Of a stretch of 23,189 nt of DNA, positions 7,239 to 23,098 are shown in pieces (within the stretch, counting starts at the first letter, position 1; each line of letters opens with the position of its first letter). Origin of the DNA: a virus. The stretch spans positions 1 through 23,189 of IMG/VR virus record IMGVR_UViG_3300030106_001920; one strand, given 5' to 3'. A model generated the notes under the pieces. It worked only from the letters and a program-made list of their open reading frames with translations. It searched no databases and was not told the origin of the DNA. Position numbers and translations under genes: made by a program.

Positions 7239-10200
7239 ATGACTAATATTTACCAACAATTTGCAAAAGATGACGAAGAAAAAAAGAATATAATAGAATT
7301 AGCTCCTAGTCAAAACATTGGCACTAGTAGTGAACCTGATTACAACCCATATTCTGAAATAACAAAACGTGATGAAGAAAGTAGAAACAATATAGTTAAA
7401 GCTAATTTGCAAGCTGTAATGAAAAAAGACCCTGAGATGGTAGGTGAAGGGTTAAGACTTGCAGAAGAAATAGGGCTTGATAAAAGTTTTGCTTTAGATA
7501 GCGATGAAGCAATAAAATTAATGCGAGAAAGAAATAGACAAAAACGATTAGAAGATTTAGAACTTGCAAAATATAGTCCTGTATTACATTTAAAACTTAC
7601 TGATCCTACGTTTGCAGCTATTGCTTATGACAATATAAGTGATTTACAAGGTTTAGAAAAATTATTTGATGACTTTAAAAGCATTCCGGAAAATGCAGCA
7701 CAAGGTTGGGAAAAAGGCAGATTAAATGTAAGAAGAGGAAAAATAGGTACGATGAAATTGTATGGCAATACAGACGAAGAATTAGATAAAGAATTAGTAG
7801 AAATTAATAAAAGATTAGAAGAAATAGAAAAAGATGGTACTGGAATATTTGAAGAAGGGTTTTCTATAATTGGACAATACTCAAAAACATTACCAGACGC
7901 ATTACAAATTGGGTTATATACAGGTGCTGCTAGTGGTGTAGCAGGTGCTGCTACAGGGCCGGGTTCTATATTTACAGCTAAAGGTGGGTTTATTGTTGGA
8001 TTTTTAGGTTCAATGGCATTTGATAGTTACGCCATAGAAGGCGGTTCAATGTATCTCGATTTATTAGAAGAAGACTTAGATAGTCAAACTTCAAGAAATA
8101 TTGCTACAGGTGTTGGTTTAGTAAATGCAGGTTTTGAATTTATTGGTTTAGGTGCAGTTGCACAACCTATAAAAAAGGCATTAATAAAAGAAACAACAAA
8201 GCAACTAACAAAAAAATTAACAAAGCCTACTGTACAAACTACAATTACAAATTTTGCTAAGAATTATTTTTTAAATAATATGTTGGCAGAATCATTAACT
8301 GAAGTAGCACAAGAAGCTACTAATGTTTTAGGTCGTGATTTAGCAGTAGCATTAAGCGATACAGATTTAGAATTAAAAATTTCAACTGAAACTGGTCGAG
8401 CAGAAATAGCAGATAGATTAACAACTACTTTTATAAGAAGTATGCAAGGTATGGCTTTAGTTGGCTTGGCAGGAAGTGGGCCAATATTTATAGGTGATTT
8501 ACAAAAAGTAAAAAAAGCAAAAGAAAATGAAGTATTTTTAAATGAACTTTCAAAAAATGCATCAGAAAGTGTTTTAAAAAAAAGAAGTGCTACAGAATAT
8601 CAAAATTTAACACAAGATTTAGGTAATGAAAAAGGTAAACCATTTGCCTATGTAGATGCACAAACTGTTGTTGAAGTAATGAAACAACAAGGCATTACTA
8701 TGCAAGACATAGAACAAGTGTCACCTGCTATAGCAAACCAAATAAAAGAATTAAATAAATCAGGTGCGTTAGTTGGACAGGATATTGTTATACCTACAGG
8801 TGAATACGCAGCAAAACTTGCAAACACAGAATTTGACGGATTTTTAAAACAACATATACGTTGGGATAAAGATGATTTTAGTAAAACAGAACGTACTTAT
8901 TTTGAAGCTAATCGTGAAAAGTTATACCAAGAAGCAAAACAAATAACAGAAAAAACAGAGAATAAAAATAATAAATTTACAGAAAGTGTTGGCAAGATAA
9001 AAAACAATTTTGAAAAAATGTTATTAGATACTGGTAAATTTAGACCTAAAGACGCAACTAATGCAGCTACTTTTTATCAAAGTTATGTAATAACACAATC
9101 GGATAGGTTAGGAATAACACCTGATGAATTTGTAGAAAAATATCCATATAAAGTAGTAGGGCCAGAACAAACACAAGTACTTGAACAACAAAATTTAAAA
9201 GATGTAAAACAAGAACTTGATAAGGTAAAAAAACAATACGAAGAACATCAACAAAATATACCGCCAGAAGTGCCAGAAGACGAAAGATTTATTGCAGGGA
9301 CAGAAACAGAAGTTACTTCATTTGATCCATTAGCAGTTAACAAAGGAATGACAAGAACAAAAATGACAGAGGCGTATGCAAAACGTAGGCAATGGGAAAT
9401 AAAAAATTTAGAATTAATTAATAAAATTGAAGAGTTAGAAAGTGAAGGTGAAATATTTACACAAAGAGCAGTACAAAGTAAAGGTAAACCAATACCTGCT
9501 GAAATATTAGAACTTGGCAAATTAGAAAATAGTTTTGAATTTGCCGGTAAAACTCAATATGCAACTAATCGTGATTTTAAATTAGCATTACAACAACGTA
9601 TTAATGATGCTGCTAAACAAGCAAAAGTTAATTTATCTGATTTTTCTGTTGAAACCGAAAAACATCTTGTACAAAATTTACTTGCAGATGCAGAGTTTGC
9701 ATTAAAAACTAATCCAAATGCAGTTGGTTGGTATAACGAAAAAGTTACTAAAGCATTAGCTGTATTGTCTAAAGTGCATCCAGAAATAGCTACAGATGCA
9801 CAAGCAAGATTTGCTTTTATTTGGGCATTAGCTAATACATCTAATGGTTTAAAAGTAGATAAAAATTTTGAATTAGCAGAACAAGCATATGCATATTATG
9901 CACAAAATGGTGTAATGCCAGTTGATATAGGCATAGGTGATGCAAGTGCTGCAATTAATAACAACATGAAATTGTTTAATAGATTAATGGAAGAAAAGGG
10001 GTTTGAAGAATTTGAACAATTTATGAAAACTATGCACACCGTAAAAGAGGTAGAAGCTTTTACTGGTAGTACTGTGTCAGGAGAAAACAAAACCGAAATG
10101 GTTTATGGTGCTGCGGTAATGGGGCCAAAAATTGGTAATGGATTTTTTGCAAATTTATATGGTCAATTTGAACAATTAACTATGGATAGATGGTTAATGC

Positions 10201-13200
10201 GTACATGGGGTCGAATGACAGGTACATTAATAACTGACTATAAAAAACAAGCCAAGACAAAACGTGAACAATTAAAAAAATTAATTAAAGGTTTAAGTTT
10301 AAAAGACAAAAAAGCTTTTGAAAAAATAATTGGTATAAAAATAAAACTTAGCAATTTAGATGAGGTAGCTGTAGCGATACAAAAAGCAAGTATGAAACCT
10401 GCTAACAGAAAAGCAATGGCACAAATAGCAACTATTGAAAATACAGCTAACGCAAACCTTATAACATCTGTTTTAGGTACACCTAAGAAAAACATAGAAA
10501 GAATAGGTATAGGAGATGAATTGCGTAAAGGCGGTAATAGTTTGGCTAAATTTATTGACGGTCAAAAAGAAGCACCTACTGGGCCAGTAGAAAGAAGACA
10601 AATTAGAAAAGTATTTAATCAAGCGTTAAACTTATTGCAACAAAACGAAAAATCGCTTACAATGGCAGATCTACAAGCGTTAGTTTGGTATCCAGAAAAA
10701 CGGTTGTATGATTCTGCAAAACTTAATCAAACAGAGCAAACTACAGGTTATCAAGATAACGAAGCACCTGATTACGCTAATGCTGCTGTTAATTTGGCAC
10801 AACAACTTGGTGTGTCAGATGCTGACATACAAACTACATTACAGGAGGTAGACAATGAACTCAAACGTCAGGCCATTATCAGCACAAGAAGAAGTGAATC
10901 TGGAGAAGGAACAGGAAGAGTTGTACAACGAGATAATATTGAAACAGACGAAGCAACAGGACTCCCCCTCAACGAAGACGGAACAGTTACTATCTACCAC
11001 CACACCGACAAACAATCAGCAGACGCAATCAGAGAGTCCAATCGACTCGAATACACTACAAGAAGTGATCCCTTCTTTACCACTAGAGATACAGCAGATC
11101 TTGGCTATGGTGATACCTCAATTGCAATCAGACTCGACCCTGCTCGACTTAGTGTCGATGATGAATTCCCAGACGGACGAAGAGATTTCAGACTCAACAA
11201 TAGAAAAGCTAGAGAGTCTATTTCAGTAAAAATAGATGAAAATCCAAATGTTCCAGATTTTGCACCGACACAAGATCAAATAAATAAAAGGGCTATAGAT
11301 GGAGTTGTTGAATTAGGTGAACCATACATGGGAGAGTATGGAGATAAAAGTCCAAATGAAGTTGATAAACAATTAAGAGATAAAGCTAAAGATTTATTTT
11401 CAACACCGGCAGCGACACCAGAAGAAGCTGCTGCTGCAAGAGAGAGAATTATTGAAAAAACTAAATTAAGAAGAACAAAAGCATATTTAAAAAAACTAAG
11501 TAGTGAATTTTCTCAACAACAAGTACCTAGTGGTTTTGATGATGCAAGAGGTGGTTTTAATCCTAAAACATTAACTGCATTTTTAAATAAAGAAGCTGAT
11601 ATATCTACGTTTTTTCATGAAACAGCACATTTTATGTTAACTGTTATGGAAGATTTAGTTTTAACAGGACAAGCAACACCAGACATACAAAATGATTTTA
11701 ATGCGTTATTAGATTTTTGGGGTGTAGAAAATGTAGATGCATGGAACAAATTATCATTAGATCAAAAAAGAAAATATCACGAAGCATTTGCATATAATTA
11801 TGAAATTTATTTAACAGAAAAAAAAGCAGCACCGAGTGTTAAGTTGCAAGAAATATTTATAAAATTTGGAGATTATGTACGCAACCTTTATAGATCTATT
11901 GTTGATGATTTAAGTAAAACCTATAAAGAAGAAAATGGTGTAGATTTACCAGTTTTAACTGATGAAGTAAGGGCTGTAATGGATCGCATGATAGCTAGTG
12001 AAGATGCAATATTGCAATCGCAACAAATATACGCAATGAAACCAATGTTTGAAACACAAGAACAAAGTGGTATGGATGATGCCACATGGAACGAATACAC
12101 AAAAGCTATACAAGAAACACAGGATGCTGCTATAGATTCATTAACTAAAGCAAGTATGGGTCAACTTAAATGGCTTAGTAGAAAAGGTAAGTTAATAGAA
12201 AGATTACAAAACAGAGAAACAAGAGAAACTCGTAAAAGAGTAATGGCAGAAGAAACTGTAAAAGCAGAAAATGAACCATTGTATAAATTACAAAAGTTTT
12301 TAAAAACTGGCGAATGGAATAATAAAAAAAATGATCAATTTAAAACAGCACAAACTAGCAAAATAGATATTGATAGTTTAAAAAACCTTATGCCGTTTTA
12401 TGACATGGCATCTGAAATAAAAAAATTAGGTACAGGCAAAAACGGAATGGTTGGTAAAAACGGTATACCAGTACAAATGGTTGCAGAAATGTTTGGTTTT
12501 GATACAGCAATAGATATGGTTAATGGTTTAGTAGATTTAGAACCTATAAAAACTGTTATAAAGGAACGTACAGAACAACGTATGTTAGACGAGTTTAGTA
12601 ATTTAACAGACCCAGAACAACGTGAATTACAAATACAAGAAGCATTGCATAACGAAGCAAGAGCTAGATTTTTAGCTATTGAATTTAAATTTTTAACTAA
12701 GACTATGCAACCAGTACGTTTTCAAGTAGCTGCTGCTAGACAAGTTGCCAGAGATATATTAGCTGACAGAAAAGTTGGTGACATTAGGCCAACAGAATAC
12801 GCTCGTGCAAGTAAAAGAGCAGTTAAAGATGCAGAAAAAGCTATGCGAGAAGGTGATAATTTAAAAGTTATACAAGCAAAAAAAGCAGAGTTATTGCATA
12901 ACCAACTTGCTCGTGAAGCTGCAATAATACAAAAACAATTTAATAAAGCTGAAAAAGATTTTAAAAAGTTTTTTAAAGATACTGATAAAAAAGTTGGTGA
13001 AAAAAAATCTAGAACAGTTGAATTTGTTAACGCAGGTCAAGAAATATTATCAAGGTTTGGGTTAGGCCCAGAATTAGAAGCAGGTGCAACTTTTGTAGAT
13101 AAACTTAAAAATTATGCACCAGATTTATATAATCAATTAGAACCAATAATAACTGAAGCAAAACTATTACCCGGTAGAGATATATCAGACTTAACGTATC

Positions 13201-15551
13201 GAGATTTTAATACGTTAACTGAAATTATGGATTCATTGTGGTATCAATCTAGACGAGATCGACAATTTAAAATTGGTGAAAAATTAGTAGAACTACAAGC
13301 TATAAAAGATGAATTATTGCCACTTATGAGAGAACAAGATGACAGACTTTCTATAGATGCAGGTAAAGGAAAAGAAGCAGGTTTAATACAAAAAACAATA
13401 TTATTTTTAGAAGGACAAAAAGCAAAAGGTAATCGTGTAGAACATTGGGCAGACAGATTAGACGGTAGTGCTGCAAGTCCAAGAATTTTAAGAGGTGATG
13501 GCTTATTAGGTGGCGGTGTGTTTACAACAAAAGAGGGAGATGTAGCAGGGCCATTTACAAGATACATATGGCGAACACTTAAAGATCCACTTACAAAATG
13601 GCGATCAGAAAGGCCAAAATATACAGGACGTTATTTAGACCTATTAAAAGAATTAGATTTTGGATCAGATAAAATTAATGCTTATGAATTTGATGAACCT
13701 TATTTATTCGGTGACAGAACAGGTAGAGGTAAAGTTGAACTGCTAGGAGCATTGTTGCATACAGGAAATTTAAGCAACAAAACAAAATTGTTAGTAGGTA
13801 GAGGTTGGGGAAGTTTAAGAGAAGATGGTTCATTAGATAGCACTAAATGGGATGCATTTGAAAAACGTATGCAAGACGAAGGTTATTTAACAAAAAAAGA
13901 TTATGAATTTATACAAAAAGTATTTGATTTAAACAAAGAATTATTACCTTTAATACAACAATCACATAGAGATGTTTTTGGATATTACTTTAAAGAAATA
14001 GGTACAACTCCTATTGTTAACAGATTTGGAACATTTGAAGGGGGTTATGTACCTGCAAAGCCTGATTATATTTTAAATGAAGATTTAAATTTGAATTTAA
14101 CTTTAGAAGAAGTTAAAGAAGAAATGCGATATTCTGTACCTGCTGTGCCTAGAGGATTTACAAAAGCAAGAACAGAAGTAAACAGACCATTATCTATTAG
14201 TTTATTTGATCAAGCAAAACATTTAGATGATGCATTACGTTTTGCTTATGTACAACCTGCTGTTACAGACTTATTAAAATTATTTAATGATAAAGAATTT
14301 AAATCCGAATTAAATCGTATTGATAGATTTGCATATAAGAATATGCTTATGCCTTGGTTAGAAAATGCAGCAACACAAAGAACATCTATTAAAAAAGATG
14401 GGATGGGAATTGGAAATTTAATTGAATATTTTACAAAAAATACAAGTTTAAATTTTATGTTTGCAAGTTTAAAAAACGCTACACAACAGGTTACTGGTGT
14501 ATTACCTGCTATGTTAAATGTAGAAAAAAAATATATGACAGATGCATTTAAAAGATATACACGCAATCCAATAGAAACTTTAAATGAAGTAGCAGAAATG
14601 TCACCTTTTATGGCAGATCGTCAAATAAATCAAATGTTTGATATACAAAATACTTTGAATGATTTAATTATAAATCCAAATAAATATGGACAAATAAAAA
14701 ATTGGACAAGAAGGCACGGATATTTTTTACAACAAGCATTTCAAAATTATGTAGATAGTTTAGTTTGGATAGCAACATGGAATCAAGTAACAGCTAATGC
14801 ACCAAAAACTATGACACCACAAGAAATACAAGTTGAAGCTATAGCACAAGCAGATGCAAACGTGCGTAAAACACAAGATAGTTTATTACCAGAGGATGTA
14901 GCTGCTTATCAAATAGATACTCCTCTTATTAAAGCTATTGTTCAATTTACAAGTTATTTTAATTCACAGGCTAATTTAAACGCAACACGATATAAAAAAG
15001 TAGTTAAAGAACTCGGATTTAAAAATAGTAGATTTAGTGGTCAAATATTTTATGCATTCTTGTTTGGTTCATTTTTACCTGCTATTGTTTCTGAAGGTAT
15101 ACAAGAAGCTTTTAGTGGTGGTCTAATAGATGAAGACGAAGATGGATATTTAGATGATATTTTAGAATTTATATTTTTTTCAAATGCACGTTATACGTCA
15201 GCTTTTATTCCTACAGGCAGTACATTTTTAATGTTGCCTTTTAATTTATTTGATGACAAACCATACAATGATCGTATAACTATTAGTCCATCAATATCAT
15301 TGATAAATTCTACTGTGCAAGGAACAACAAGATTTTTTATAAATTTAGCTGACCCTAATAAAGAAGTAAAAGGTAATGAAGTAAGAAGCGTTATAACTCT
15401 TATGGGTTTAATAGGTCAAGTACCTACATATCCGTTTGCTAAAGCTATTGGTTTATTACATGATTACAAAAATGGCAGATGGATTCCAAGAGGGCCAATT
15501 GATTTAATTAGAGGTTTAGTGTCTGGTCAAAAAGGTGAAGGCAGAGATTAA
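7239..15551 (+). CDS. Giant polyvalent internal virion protein, gp16-like, with ART-like and HExxH segments
   Basis: A 2770-residue protein in the T7 gp16 position, presumably ejected with the DNA. Segments in order: charged N-terminus; Gly/Ala-rich hydrophobic stretch (about 218-270); 'AYVDAQ ... DIVIPTGEYAAKLANTEF' (about 467-550), a block common in large polyvalent phage proteins; a conserved block with GPKIGNGFFANLYGQFEQLT and MDRWLMRTWGR (about 955-997). A toxin-like segment follows with YHHT at 1253, FFTT at 1279, a GYGD and DDEFPDGRRDF at 1307, resembling ADP-ribosyltransferase-like domains. Next is a zincin-like HETAH at 1460-1464 with HEAFAYNYEIYL from 1514. Coiled-coil-rich region about 1575-1960. 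The C-terminal block (about 2480-2770) matches the usual end of this class. I see no lytic transglycosylase motif of the T7 gp16 type. GGAAGG precedes the start. A second frame is nested at 10855-11229. Confidence 0.8.
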   Translation: MTNIYQQFAKDDEEKKNIIELAPSQNIGTSSEPDYNPYSEITKRDEESRNNIVKANLQAVMKKDPEMVGEGLRLAEEIGLDKSFALDSDEAIKLMRERNRQKRLEDLELAKYSPVLHLKLTDPTFAAIAYDNISDLQGLEKLFDDFKSIPENAAQGWEKGRLNVRRGKIGTMKLYGNTDEELDKELVEINKRLEEIEKDGTGIFEEGFSIIGQYSKTLPDALQIGLYTGAASGVAGAATGPGSIFTAKGGFIVGFLGSMAFDSYAIEGGSMYLDLLEEDLDSQTSRNIATGVGLVNAGFEFIGLGAVAQPIKKALIKETTKQLTKKLTKPTVQTTITNFAKNYFLNNMLAESLTEVAQEATNVLGRDLAVALSDTDLELKISTETGRAEIADRLTTTFIRSMQGMALVGLAGSGPIFIGDLQKVKKAKENEVFLNELSKNASESVLKKRSATEYQNLTQDLGNEKGKPFAYVDAQTVVEVMKQQGITMQDIEQVSPAIANQIKELNKSGALVGQDIVIPTGEYAAKLANTEFDGFLKQHIRWDKDDFSKTERTYFEANREKLYQEAKQITEKTENKNNKFTESVGKIKNNFEKMLLDTGKFRPKDATNAATFYQSYVITQSDRLGITPDEFVEKYPYKVVGPEQTQVLEQQNLKDVKQELDKVKKQYEEHQQNIPPEVPEDERFIAGTETEVTSFDPLAVNKGMTRTKMTEAYAKRRQWEIKNLELINKIEELESEGEIFTQRAVQSKGKPIPAEILELGKLENSFEFAGKTQYATNRDFKLALQQRINDAAKQAKVNLSDFSVETEKHLVQNLLADAEFALKTNPNAVGWYNEKVTKALAVLSKVHPEIATDAQARFAFIWALANTSNGLKVDKNFELAEQAYAYYAQNGVMPVDIGIGDASAAINNNMKLFNRLMEEKGFEEFEQFMKTMHTVKEVEAFTGSTVSGENKTEMVYGAAVMGPKIGNGFFANLYGQFEQLTMDRWLMRTWGRMTGTLITDYKKQAKTKREQLKKLIKGLSLKDKKAFEKIIGIKIKLSNLDEVAVAIQKASMKPANRKAMAQIATIENTANANLITSVLGTPKKNIERIGIGDELRKGGNSLAKFIDGQKEAPTGPVERRQIRKVFNQALNLLQQNEKSLTMADLQALVWYPEKRLYDSAKLNQTEQTTGYQDNEAPDYANAAVNLAQQLGVSDADIQTTLQEVDNELKRQAIISTRRSESGEGTGRVVQRDNIETDEATGLPLNEDGTVTIYHHTDKQSADAIRESNRLEYTTRSDPFFTTRDTADLGYGDTSIAIRLDPARLSVDDEFPDGRRDFRLNNRKARESISVKIDENPNVPDFAPTQDQINKRAIDGVVELGEPYMGEYGDKSPNEVDKQLRDKAKDLFSTPAATPEEAAAARERIIEKTKLRRTKAYLKKLSSEFSQQQVPSGFDDARGGFNPKTLTAFLNKEADISTFFHETAHFMLTVMEDLVLTGQATPDIQNDFNALLDFWGVENVDAWNKLSLDQKRKYHEAFAYNYEIYLTEKKAAPSVKLQEIFIKFGDYVRNLYRSIVDDLSKTYKEENGVDLPVLTDEVRAVMDRMIASEDAILQSQQIYAMKPMFETQEQSGMDDATWNEYTKAIQETQDAAIDSLTKASMGQLKWLSRKGKLIERLQNRETRETRKRVMAEETVKAENEPLYKLQKFLKTGEWNNKKNDQFKTAQTSKIDIDSLKNLMPFYDMASEIKKLGTGKNGMVGKNGIPVQMVAEMFGFDTAIDMVNGLVDLEPIKTVIKERTEQRMLDEFSNLTDPEQRELQIQEALHNEARARFLAIEFKFLTKTMQPVRFQVAAARQVARDILADRKVGDIRPTEYARASKRAVKDAEKAMREGDNLKVIQAKKAELLHNQLAREAAIIQKQFNKAEKDFKKFFKDTDKKVGEKKSRTVEFVNAGQEILSRFGLGPELEAGATFVDKLKNYAPDLYNQLEPIITEAKLLPGRDISDLTYRDFNTLTEIMDSLWYQSRRDRQFKIGEKLVELQAIKDELLPLMREQDDRLSIDAGKGKEAGLIQKTILFLEGQKAKGNRVEHWADRLDGSAASPRILRGDGLLGGGVFTTKEGDVAGPFTRYIWRTLKDPLTKWRSERPKYTGRYLDLLKELDFGSDKINAYEFDEPYLFGDRTGRGKVELLGALLHTGNLSNKTKLLVGRGWGSLREDGSLDSTKWDAFEKRMQDEGYLTKKDYEFIQKVFDLNKELLPLIQQSHRDVFGYYFKEIGTTPIVNRFGTFEGGYVPAKPDYILNEDLNLNLTLEEVKEEMRYSVPAVPRGFTKARTEVNRPLSISLFDQAKHLDDALRFAYVQPAVTDLLKLFNDKEFKSELNRIDRFAYKNMLMPWLENAATQRTSIKKDGMGIGNLIEYFTKNTSLNFMFASLKNATQQVTGVLPAMLNVEKKYMTDAFKRYTRNPIETLNEVAEMSPFMADRQINQMFDIQNTLNDLIINPNKYGQIKNWTRRHGYFLQQAFQNYVDSLVWIATWNQVTANAPKTMTPQEIQVEAIAQADANVRKTQDSLLPEDVAAYQIDTPLIKAIVQFTSYFNSQANLNATRYKKVVKELGFKNSRFSGQIFYAFLFGSFLPAIVSEGIQEAFSGGLIDEDEDGYLDDILEFIFFSNARYTSAFIPTGSTFLMLPFNLFDDKPYNDRITISPSISLINSTVQGTTRFFINLADPNKEVKGNEVRSVITLMGLIGQVPTYPFAKAIGLLHDYKNGRWIPRGPIDLIRGLVSGQKGEGRD
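10843..10849 (+). promoter_or_regulatory. Internal Shine-Dalgarno sequence for the nested frame
   Basis: AGGAGGT lies five bases before the ATG at 10855, deep inside the giant core-protein gene. It is as good as or better than any site in front of the main genes here. In the host frame it is written with CAG GAG for Gln-Glu, whereas this genome mostly uses CAA and GAA, so the sequence looks selected rather than forced by the protein. Confidence 0.65.
10855..11229 (+). CDS. Nested +1-frame gene candidate, acidic 124-residue protein
   Basis: An ATG with a near-ideal AGGAGGT site opens 124 codons in the +1 frame of the giant gene and stops with TAA at 11227. The product has about 21 Asp/Glu against 6 Lys/Arg, is rich in Gln, Ser and Thr, and has a C-terminal half with amphipathic helix patterns (LEIQQILAMVIPQL, LLDLVSMM, STIEKLESLF). 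No family is recognised. In the host frame over this span all eight Leu codons are CTC or CTT and all eight Ile codons ATC or ATT, although TTA and ATA dominate elsewhere, while Arg, Gly, Ala and Thr still favour A-ending codons. That is what avoidance of stops in the nested frame would produce. GC rises to about 44% over 10861-11220, against about 31% over 11221-11400. The alternative is a toxin-like segment acquired from a donor with other codon habits. Confidence 0.6.
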   Translation: MNSNVRPLSAQEEVNLEKEQEELYNEIILKQTKQQDSPSTKTEQLLSTTTPTNNQQTQSESPIDSNTLQEVIPSLPLEIQQILAMVIPQLQSDSTLLDLVSMMNSQTDEEISDSTIEKLESLFQ

Positions 15552-21175: not shown

Positions 21176-21499
21176 ATGACATATAAAGGAGACAAGGTTA
21201 AAATTAATAACAGACAGAGAACACTAGAAAATGCAAGTGTTTTTACTATTAACAATTTGACCATGAGAAAAATTCTTGATGCTTTAACTATCGTATCTAC
21301 TATCCTAGTTTTGGGAATATTAGGCGGTGGTTTTTTTACATACAAATATGTAAGCAGCGAACAATTTAAAGCTAAGATTATGAATCAAATACTTGGCGAA
21401 GTTAAAGGTTTATTACCTAATGTATTAGATAAAGGATTGCCTGACATAACAGGGCCATCTATTCCTACACCACCAACACAAAAAAAATTAAAATTTTAA
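21176..21499 (+). CDS. Small membrane protein of a cyanophage-like type
   Basis: A 107-residue protein with one strong membrane segment at residues 36-56 (LTIVSTILVLGILGGGFFTY), a following basic/amphipathic part and a Pro-rich end (SIPTPPTQKK). The block from MRKILDALT onward is familiar to me from marine cyanophages, where it is an unassigned protein. The start is uncertain: ATG 21176 has no ribosome binding site, and an in-frame ATG at 21263 gives a 78-residue product. The segment between (NASVFTINNLT) looks protein-like, so I keep the longer form. It could act as a holin or an envelope protein, but neither is shown. The TAA stop is followed at once, in the same frame, by the TTG start of the next gene. 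Confidence 0.62.
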   Translation: MTYKGDKVKINNRQRTLENASVFTINNLTMRKILDALTIVSTILVLGILGGGFFTYKYVSSEQFKAKIMNQILGEVKGLLPNVLDKGLPDITGPSIPTPPTQKKLKF

Positions 21500-21501
21500 T
21501 T
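21486..21501. repeat. 16-bp AT-only perfect palindrome at a stop/start junction
   Basis: AATTAAAATTTTAATT is a perfect palindrome covering the last codons and stop of the membrane-protein gene and the first two bases of the TTG start codon of the next gene. It may be only a by-product of AT-rich codons, but it could also affect reinitiation or mRNA structure. Confidence 0.4.
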
Positions 21502-22138
21502 GGAAATACCTGAGATACATATACCTGATGTTCATATTCCATATACCTATGTGCCTGACTATAGCCATTCAAATGTACAAGTAATAGGTTGCACTTACTA
21601 CCACAGAGATACTAAAAATACAGGCAATAGAAATTTAATAATAGAAGATCCTAATGGTGTAATTAGTAATTGTCCGTACCCTAGTTTTAACCCATTAAAC
21701 TATGTACCAGATCAATTAACAATTACAGAAGAGATGCCTAATCTTGCTAATGAAAGTGAGATGCCAACTAATGAACCACCAAAAACTAAAATACCAAAAG
21801 ACAAAAAGAAGGAAGATGAATACAAACCCTGTCCTCCAGACAATGCTCCCAGAATAGGAAGTTTTGTTAACGATAAACGATTGGAGCGTATCAAAGATTA
21901 TGTTAGAGAAAGCAACGGTGATTGCACTACTGTTTATGAAGACGTACAGTTCATCGACCAGTACTTACCTACGCCTAGCATTGCTGTCTCTACTTTTTTT
22001 GTCGCTAGTATCGCTGCGAGTACTCCTCTTATTTTAAACGCTATAAAACCCCTAACGAAGCAACTTATAAAACGTCTAACTAAATCTAAGGCTTCAAAGA
22101 ATGAGAGTGAGGGATCACCTGACCGGGAGGGACAGTAA
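21500..22138 (+). CDS. Cyanophage-like Cys-containing membrane-anchored protein, TTG start
   Basis: A 212-residue protein reading MEIPEIHIPDVHIPYTYVPD from a TTG placed directly after the previous TAA in the same frame. I recall marine cyanophage proteins with this opening and with 'YHRDTKNTGNRNLIIEDPNG' (residues about 34-53), a Pro/Lys-rich middle, 'RIGSFVNDKRLERI' and a C-terminal hydrophobic helix with KPLTKQLIKRLTKSK. All of these are present, which supports the TTG start. It has four Cys in the region before the helix. One C-terminal membrane helix (about residues 162-180) followed by a basic tail suggests membrane anchoring. Function is unknown in the relatives I recall. There is no Shine-Dalgarno site. 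The last 53 bases overlap the convergent minus-strand gene. Confidence 0.68.
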   Translation: MEIPEIHIPDVHIPYTYVPDYSHSNVQVIGCTYYHRDTKNTGNRNLIIEDPNGVISNCPYPSFNPLNYVPDQLTITEEMPNLANESEMPTNEPPKTKIPKDKKKEDEYKPCPPDNAPRIGSFVNDKRLERIKDYVRESNGDCTTVYEDVQFIDQYLPTPSIAVSTFFVASIAASTPLILNAIKPLTKQLIKRLTKSKASKNESEGSPDREGQ

Positions 22139-22799
22139 CACTAATTCCCTCACATATAGATGCATACTTGCCTGTAAATTGTACTCCCAACTTAGCTTGT
22201 TCACCACATACCTTTAACCTAAACAAGGCCAATTCTAATTTTCCTTTTTCATATAATAATTTTTGGTTTTTTATATTTACCTCTGTTGCCTGATGACATA
22301 GTGCAGGTGCTTTACCTAACGGAATACTAAATTGTGCTGATATACCGTAGTTTAAATTGTAGTTATCTTTCTCAAACCTTGGTGTTTTTGTAGTGTACTT
22401 TACTGCCCCTGTATCCTCGTTGTATACGTCTTGATATGTATATTGCTCTATTGGCCTGTTAAAGCTCCATGAATCCACTACATAGGGCGTAATGGTAAGA
22501 CTAGGTGAACTGCATACAATCCCTTGTGACATCCTAAACTGGGGGCTAGAATTTGGAAGTATTTGGGTGGCATTATTATTAATAACCCCCTGTGCTTGGC
22601 TGCTCGGACTAGAAATTGTAGTGTTAGCAAGGGTTTTGGAGGGGCATAAACATAATAAAATTACTGCCCAAACGTAGTTTCTACGGTGGTGGTAGTTGTT
22701 GTATTTATGGTGCGGTTTATTGTAGTTATTGTGTCTAGGCCGGGAGAAATTACTGACTCTACCAAACTGAATGGCTGAGACTCGTTTACTATTTTCCAT
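22086..22799 (-). CDS. Exported cyanophage-like protein, uncertain start
   Basis: The convincing part is an exported domain: hydrophobic VWAVILLCLCPSKTLA, then ANTTISSPSSQAQG, a 'QFRMSQGIVCSSPSLTITPY' block, NYNLNYGISAQFSIPLG and a C-terminal coiled segment ending 'KYASICEGISV'. I recall this layout from unassigned marine cyanophage proteins with signal peptides. The only canonical start in frame is ATG at 22799, preceded by GGAAGG nine bases away. It puts 46 basic, His/Asn-rich residues before the hydrophobic core and overlaps the upstream minus-strand gene by 139 bases. A shorter form would need a non-canonical codon (ATT or GTT), and a frameshift from the upstream gene is also possible. 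The TAG stop lies inside the plus-strand gene's end (53-base overlap). Confidence 0.65.
   Translation of the reverse strand: MENSKRVSAIQFGRVSNFSRPRHNNYNKPHHKYNNYHHRRNYVWAVILLCLCPSKTLANTTISSPSSQAQGVINNNATQILPNSSPQFRMSQGIVCSSPSLTITPYVVDSWSFNRPIEQYTYQDVYNEDTGAVKYTTKTPRFEKDNYNLNYGISAQFSIPLGKAPALCHQATEVNIKNQKLLYEKGKLELALFRLKVCGEQAKLGVQFTGKYASICEGISVTVPPGQVIPHSHSLKP
22107..22153. repeat. 8-bp inverted repeat at the convergent gene junction
   Basis: GTGAGGGA (22107-22114) and TCCCTCAC (22146-22153) are exact inverted copies with a 31-base loop, centred on the overlap of the two convergent genes. There is no T run on either side, so it is a weak candidate for a two-way terminator or a chance match. 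Confidence 0.3.
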
Positions 22800-23098
22800 C
22801 TAGGTACACCTTCCAACGTAGGACTTGTGTATGAAAAGTTAACCCCATTAACTGTTTGCGTAGCTTCTGCCGTAGGAATCGAATTAATATAACCATTGAC
22901 ATCTGCACTCTCTATGTTTGACCCTGATACACTCAGAGTGTAGCCTGTACGGAACTGGTGGCTTACTATATTTTCTGTCACCACAGATTGGCTTTGAGAA
23001 TTTGTGCTTGAACTTCCTGTACGAAACGTTGGCACAACTGGGTTTGCAAAGATTTTGACAGGAAATAATATTATTAATAGCAGCCAAAATTTAATCAA
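22661..23098 (-). CDS. Small exported protein of a cyanophage-like type, TTG start
   Basis: A 145-residue protein starting at TTG 23098, with a clear signal peptide (MIKFWLLLIILFPVKIFA, likely cleavage after FA) and a Ser/Thr/Asn-rich, Cys-free mature part. The end, with 'W-KIVNESQPFSLVES...SPGLDTI' and a Thr run closing in TTFGQ, resembles small secreted proteins I recall in marine cyanophages, always beside the gene that follows here. The upstream gene's stop (TAA, 23091-23093) lies inside its first codons, an eight-base overlap, so translation is probably coupled, and there is no Shine-Dalgarno site. The role is unknown; a virion surface or envelope-exported protein is possible. Confidence 0.65.
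   Translation of the reverse strand: MIKFWLLLIILFPVKIFANPVVPTFRTGSSSTNSQSQSVVTENIVSHQFRTGYTLSVSGSNIESADVNGYINSIPTAEATQTVNGVNFSYTSPTLEGVPRWKIVNESQPFSLVESVISPGLDTITTINRTINTTTTTTVETTFGQ

Follow-up and report, generated by a model that had tools for sequence, protein, structure and literature searches.

Evidence for a conserved +1 gene nested within the gene of a giant ejection-type protein in tailed phages

The question raised by this locus is whether a reading frame lying in the +1 register inside the gene of a giant core protein is a gene in its own right and, if so, what its product may do for the protein within which it is written. The window, by which we mean the whole stretch of DNA that was analysed, is a virus record of 23,189 bases, and its giant gene (7239..15551, plus strand) is an open frame for a core/ejection-type protein of 2770 aa that matches phrog_9880 (E 2e-267). 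The preliminary description had placed a frame of 124 codons plus stop (10855-11229, plus strand; 124 aa) inside this gene, which was confirmed with the 2770-codon frame as host, and had called it the sole long nested frame; it is indeed the only plus-strand ORF of at least 80 aa within another plus-strand gene of the window. The Shine-Dalgarno sequence AGGAGGT (10843..10849, plus strand) is present as described, five bases 5' of the ATG, and on the plus strand of the whole window AGGAGG is followed by an NTG 3-10 bases downstream only at this site.

The window runs through tail proteins, a 185-aa internal virion protein (phrog_418), a 796-aa protein, the giant protein and a tail fibre, in family terms phrog_394, phrog_376, phrog_418, phrog_9880 and tail-fibre families. 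The ejection cluster of T7 has the order tail, internal virion, large core and tail fibre, and this order is met in the window; the 796-aa protein 5' of the giant gene had no match at E 0.001. Within the giant protein we distinguish an LPD22 domain (residues 56-147, E 3e-11), an upstream module M (residues ~661-1210; 9219..10868, plus strand), the presence of which predicts the nested gene, and a variable cargo slot (residues ~1214-1436; 10878..11546, plus strand). The flanks of the slot are conserved and its content is variable, being unrelated among MW202722, PQ492659 (Limnohabitans phage DC33) and MW202640; the content also differs among marine, freshwater and isolate relatives. At 11610-11639 (host residues 1458-1467) the giant protein has the HExxH motif FFHETAHFML, presumably a zinc-peptidase site, with HETAHF common to the same three phages and HESGHF in Bbp10 of BPP-1. 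In L161, L162 and L336 the host frame ends within a few hundred codons past the nested frame, as though the giant gene were split or shortened in these loci. Towards the end of the window, a 107-aa ORF (21176-21499) resembles phrog_568 ('plasmid stability', E 4e-14) with phage structural genes nearby, and two minus-strand ORFs (22086-22799 and 22661-23098) overlap each other, the former also overlapping the convergent ORF 21500-22138.

Codon usage of the host frame is altered over the overlap. The claimed loss of TTA, CTA and ATA was found (0/8 Leu, 0/8 Ile), while in the remainder of the giant gene 187 of 245 Leu residues are written with TTA or CTA and 102 of 157 Ile residues with ATA; by simple multiplication, such an absence would arise by chance with a probability of about 2e-9. 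The Shine-Dalgarno bases are written with what had been called the minority codons CAG GAG, and the counts agree (CAG 5 vs CAA 135, GAG 15 vs GAA 201). The GC content of the overlap, given before as about 44%, equals 43.7%, that of the giant gene is 32.0%, and the next 180 bases have 32.8% and not about 31%, a small error. When host synonymous codons were redrawn from the upstream usage of each gene, a mean of 7-11 stops in the +1 frame was expected, and the frame stayed open in 0 of 2000 draws for each of 46 sequences. When the overlap's own codons were shuffled, it stayed open in about 12% of shuffles (median over 46 sequences), which means that the signal lies in the choice of codons and not in their order.

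The nested protein can be divided into three parts. Its N-terminal module (10855..10959, plus strand; predicted helix at residues 10-33) occurs with different host cargoes, and its profile (HMM A5) matches 321 of 352 records searched, many of them redundant. The S/T/Q/N-rich linker that follows (10960..11037, plus strand) is mostly predicted to be disordered (pLDDT <50 at residues 34-57), and over this stretch conservation is stronger in the host frame. The C-terminal domain (residues 62-124; 11038..11226, plus strand), only seen with ART-like (ADP-ribosyltransferase-like fold) cargo, is predicted by AlphaFold2 to form four helices with block-mean pLDDT of 72-83, while the model of the whole protein has a mean pLDDT of 68.9 and a pTM of 0.41. 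Searches of the nested protein against Pfam, NCBIfam, PDB sequences and folds gave nothing convincing: the best NCBIfam match was at E 0.0013, in 3 of 43 members, the best VIA match had Z 3.8 (rmsd 4.6, 71 aligned), and one DC33-derived ORF resembled phrog_11719 (E 0.021). Of the 43 long nested proteins, 37 gave matches to the family phrog_1371, of unknown function, when values up to E 1 were allowed, the best being E 1.9e-6; the likeness is only C-terminal and partial (about 30 C-terminal residues in most of ten members viewed singly; profile positions 111-140 of 160 or similar, at best 62-140). At E up to 1, this family matched 4 of 10 records, all at nested copies, and also 3 of 14 control genomes, and it had no match in 8 phages (E 0.01), 7 bacterial genomes (E 0.001) or 299 genomes (E 1e-4).

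The host-frame cargo opposite the linker and tail is the ART-like domain (host residues 1240-1334; 10956..11240, plus strand), modelled by AlphaFold2 with a mean pLDDT of 81.6. This predicted model resembles the RhsP2 toxin (Foldseek probability 0.97 but E 0.11), the TreTu toxin (Z 6.7, rmsd 2.9, 84 aligned), and diphtheria toxin and Tpt1 (Z about 6). Many of its top structural matches are, as we take it, ART-fold proteins, and the matches would thus belong largely to one fold class, each being weak individually. An H-Y-D active-site pattern is described for polyvalent ARTs (PMC5512222). Candidate His, Tyr and Asp columns were placed by eye in alignment A6, and the window copy and two close relatives deviate at the candidate Tyr column.

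The preliminary description had stated what would refute the nested gene, namely homologues with a conserved host frame but with +1 stops or a lost start, no drop in synonymous substitution, or the same codon pattern in toxin-like segments lacking the open +1 frame; none of this was met among the examined relatives that keep the upstream module. With the host frame as query, 36 viral contigs were recovered, and the nested frame was open in all 33 covering the site (L034-L036 stop short of it and were excluded); a query with the nested protein, a sample biased by design, found 48. Over 81 rows, with the window and redundant loci, the nested frame was closed by a stop in 80 and ran off the contig end in one, and 79/79 profile-search loci that were re-examined lay inside an open host frame. 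A sample anchored on host residues 1101-1205 (the closest 80 of 374 loci, many of their contigs already being in earlier samples) had the start at the site in 80/80, seven loci leaving the contig before the stop, two of them almost immediately. Of these closest 80, 76 have a detected ART-like domain; two of the other four are cut by the contig end, and L252 and L254, without an ART-like domain, have nested ORFs of 48 and 51 aa.

Among 107 distinct sequences (carriers of the A5 module only, window included), an NTG stands 4-9 bases past a Shine-Dalgarno-like sequence in 81/81 with ART-like cargo and in 14/26 without it, the remaining 12 having no convincing NTG and Shine-Dalgarno at the site. 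AGGAGG itself is present in 77 of the 81 ART-bearing sequences, with weaker variants in the other four, and the start is conserved as ATG, TTG or GTG while the overlying host residue varies. The proposed check of start, Shine-Dalgarno and open +1 frame was thereby passed in marine relatives. A GC-rich group (L275, L283, L302, L312, L319, L332 and others) keeps the module with no clear start at the site, and in L275, L280, L283, L302, L312, L319, L321 and L332 the module is conserved with no clear NTG plus Shine-Dalgarno there, the +1 frame being open further upstream; an open frame by itself tells little in GC-rich relatives. As to the samples, the scans took the closest loci, at most 80 per scan, and contigs recur between them: relatives of module M numbered 374, 491 and 330 in three overlapping scans, at most the best 80 of each were taken, and 31 of the best 80 of 491 were analysed, the others being judged marine repeats by eye. 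L058 and L062 are cut at the 5' side, and L082, which runs off its contig, was excluded from the identity, dNN/dNS and codon-redraw tests.

Synonymous change in the host frame, for which a depression had also been proposed as a check, falls sharply over the nested ORF (identity 0.84 vs 0.66-0.71). In 46 marine sequences, the synonymous-codon identity is 0.838 in the overlap and 0.657-0.709 upstream, and at residues 1209-1233 it reaches 0.90 with an amino-acid identity of only 0.41. A scan of 24 sequences over 209 segments of the giant gene (segments with <300 comparisons were excluded) had its eight strongest signals all in residues 1205-1335, the overlap being residues 1206-1331, and the ninth (residues 1369-1387) outside it, with few data.

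The ratios of substitutions point to the nested frame itself. At residues 1206-1240, the nested dNN/dNS is 0.42 and the host dNN/dSN is 1.01, in contrast to 0.71 and 0.29 at the control residues 851-1200; at residues 1241-1331 (the tail) the nested ratio is 0.52, and at residues 1235-1262 the host codon-position pattern dominates over the nested one. The N-terminal module (310 of the 321 A5 matches used, 85 distinct) gave nested ratios of 0.51 (0.32-0.76) in the AT-rich and 0.45 (0.28-0.67) in the GC-rich set, with host ratios of 1.24 and 0.99 and no control of its own. For the DC33-type set described below (78 loci used out of the best 80 of 330, 50 distinct; the longest NTG-started frame near the site was taken and a Shine-Dalgarno was not required), the nested ratio was 0.53 (0.39-0.70) and the host ratio 0.83 (0.64-1.07), as compared with 0.81 and 0.14 in the upstream control; here 794 nested pairs stand against 221 control pairs, and the identity filter was applied per region separately. 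Since the pairs are non-independent, the intervals are column-resampled and the control pairs of the DC33-type set are fewer, the ratios are indicative only, and because the upstream dNN/dNS baseline is 0.71-0.81 and not 1, the nested ratio represents a shift and not an absolute proof. Within these bounds, and as far as sequence comparison can tell, what is expected of purifying selection on the nested frame relative to the upstream control is met.

These patterns divide the protein into an older and a younger part. The name of overprinted gene, used in the preliminary description, suits the C-terminal part and does not suit the first ~35 codons, where the host frame looks like a neutral linker; judging from the alignments, these codons are the older part, with the nested frame constrained, the host frame near neutral and different cargoes downstream. 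Bacterial ART-like relatives have +1 stops, so in the C-terminal part the host frame has the wider distribution and the nested tail is the overprint. Among the complete module carriers, the nested protein measures 119-138 aa in 76/76 with ART-like cargo and 48-85 aa in the 13 without it that have a recognised start; the 12 without a recognised start measure 29-50 aa from the module's start. The acidity claimed for the product was borne out by count in the window (21 acidic, 6 basic residues) and holds for the long form (net charge -13 to -24, 43 A1 rows), although not for the shorter form (average -0.9, 50 proteins).

Freshwater phages with other or almost no cargo carry the N-terminal module at the same place, either as such or as a related version. 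A nested +1 ORF is found at this site in the complete genomes MW202722 (62 aa), PQ492659 (71 aa, 27781-27566 of the record, complement) and MW202640 (62 aa), the records of which annotate the giant gene and not the nested one. Phage DC33 has a cultured freshwater host, Limnohabitans sp. DCL3, and is reported to have an icosahedral head and a tail (PMC12195039), whereas the deposited taxonomy of PQ492659.1 puts it in the filamentous Inoviridae. In uncultured relatives one finds either an N-terminal module of A5 type, with the consensus P-x-S-A-Q-Q-E-x-N-E, or a protein of DC33 type, the usual C-terminus of which is LTRExAExMAEAFGF. The DC33-type nested protein of an uncultured contig, searched against 50,697 phage records, found the +1 frame of DC33 (E 8e-13), and at this site a nested ORF of 60-95 aa is present in 78 of 80 DC33-type loci (best 80 of 330). 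In 18 of 54 distinct DC33-type rows the script recognised no candidate start preceded by a Shine-Dalgarno-like sequence, and in three further rows only a later start has one. The N-terminal alignments of the two types match with an hhalign probability of 96%, a link that is partly circular because two phage types occur in both alignments.

The distribution follows module M. Residues 741-1210 searched against phage records matched only MW202722, MW202640 and PQ492659, and among 13 whole phage records the nested gene is in exactly these three with module M; as their copies were already in the A5 and A9 alignments, only the absence elsewhere is new. The whole records of BPP-1, Carin1, Jess A, AF, CP2, PS25B.1 and Ab9, which have giant homologues without M, contain no A5 or A9 module, the examined parts of giant homologues without the nested gene have no match to residues 661-1210, and the examined parts of bacterial contigs L181-L183 and L185, with other giant-protein parts and no M, have no A5 module. 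No separate-gene copy of the nested protein was found with profiles A5 and A9 in the 13 whole phage records, nor a separate-gene homologue among phages by tblastn of the nested protein (P0001) or one relative. At the level of these comparisons, the tie between the nested gene and module M can be regarded as established; the nested gene starts at the end of M, so the linkage could be mere position.

Several other explanations have to be weighed. An immunity or antitoxin-like role, in which the nested protein would inhibit the ART-like cargo and so protect the producer until packaging, is in our view rather unlikely, even though the long acidic tail is present in 76/76 complete ART-bearing and 0/25 complete non-ART module carriers, the nearest structures of the cargo domain include toxin domains, and the tail is constrained (nested dNN/dNS 0.52). 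The N-terminal module or its relative is kept without any ART-like cargo, and in bacterial contigs L180-L186 the examined parts have ART-like domains but no A5 module; moreover, a tail encoded on the cargo's own DNA would follow the cargo anyway. ART-like domains elsewhere, without the nested gene, gave no tblastn match to the nested protein, and their +1 frame has stops in 7/7 full or partial copies, as it should if the open frame is not a general trait of toxin-like segments. Programmed frameshifting, by which the N-terminal part of the giant protein would receive another tail from the +1 frame, seems quite improbable. A Shine-Dalgarno-like stretch can stimulate +1 shifting, as in prfB, and the GC-rich group (L275, L332 and others) is open upstream with no clear start, which can both be counted for it; however, in the window the +1 frame is closed by a TAG one codon ahead of the ATG, in marine relatives the host residue varies and the NTG at Shine-Dalgarno spacing is kept, and inspection by eye found no shared slippery sequence in the stretches inspected.

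That the conserved bases form an RNA or DNA element, either a structure or a recombination site for cargo exchange, and do not encode a protein, has in its favour only the position at the edge of the variable cargo slot, and we find it scarcely credible, since changes follow the nested codon frame and both start and stop are kept. As an RNA element it was rejected, with 0 pairs from RNAalifold on 18 marine sequences and nothing from Rfam for 10500-11500 at a cut-off of E 0.1. The last candidate, in which a GC-rich cassette has spread through these phages in recent times and left the open frame as a by-product, could call on the GC content of the overlap (43.7% vs 32.0% in the gene) and on the related ART-like domains that occur in GC-rich genomes. 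Its probability is nonetheless close to negligible, because synonymous identity peaks where the host amino acids are poorly conserved (identity 0.41), the start and Shine-Dalgarno lie outside the ART-like domain, and the module is kept in ART-free phages as well; a recent cassette is ruled out by the frame-specific substitution pattern, which also supports the earlier proposal that the codon loss fits selection on the nested frame better than a GC-rich donor.

The nested +1 gene therefore very probably encodes a real protein, a conclusion drawn from sequence, with expression inferred and with no expression, proteomic or genetic data. As the most likely function, this internally initiated gene would make a dedicated partner of the giant protein, a reading on which we stand evenly divided, both expression and binding being inferred. 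Ribosomes would initiate internally at AGGAGGT-AGACA-ATG on the mRNA of the giant protein, as inferred from the start, the Shine-Dalgarno and the constraint, and the +1 frame read from there would give a small separate protein. Its N-terminal helical module would be the constant part accompanying module M, and its tail would be set by the cargo slot: long, acidic and helical where it is overprinted on an ART-like cargo, shorter where the slot carries another cargo or next to nothing. The nested protein may bind module M or the adjoining cargo, for which there are no binding data, and may help the giant protein to fold, to be loaded into the virion core or to be ejected, which is likewise inferred. 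A role of the tail as inhibitor or escort of the ART-like cargo is not favoured over that of a general partner because the module persists without this cargo. A self-matching cargo system, consisting of a constant docking module and a tail overprinted on the cargo, remains a tentative idea, which we would sooner doubt than accept. Should it be true, one recombination would swap the cargo plus its dedicated partner (chaperone or inhibitor), since both are written in the same DNA.

The nested gene is absent from the annotation of three complete phage genomes that carry it, and it offers an overlapping gene in tailed phages whose support comes from many diverged relatives and from tests in two phage sets. 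Old and new parts appear side by side in it, a module over a near-neutral host frame and a tail born on toxin-like cargo, and it may provide a handle on the assembly of giant ejection-type proteins with exchangeable cargo. As a kind, nested genes are already known, and among the literature matches listed there was no description of this one. T7 has the ejection proteins gp14-gp15-gp16 and the small ejected proteins gp6.7/gp7.3. The window resembles it in the order of tail, internal virion protein, giant protein and tail fibre, while the small protein here is nested within the giant gene, unlike the small ejected proteins of T7; a profile search of the T7 record gave no match to the nested-module profiles. 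Same-strand viral genes born by overprinting have been reviewed (PMC8227390), and the likeness is a second protein from an alternative frame, with the ART-like host frame of the C-terminal part being the more widespread one. The differences are that a constant N-terminal module here lies over a neutral host frame and that the tail changes with exchangeable host-frame cargo. For polyvalent proteins with ART domains, delivery together with the DNA has been predicted (Iyer et al. 2017, PMC5512222), and a word search of that paper found neither 'overlap' nor 'alternative frame'. Our giant phage protein is like these proteins in its LPD22 domain and in the ART-like cargo at a variable site, and it differs in that a second gene is written through the linker and the cargo.
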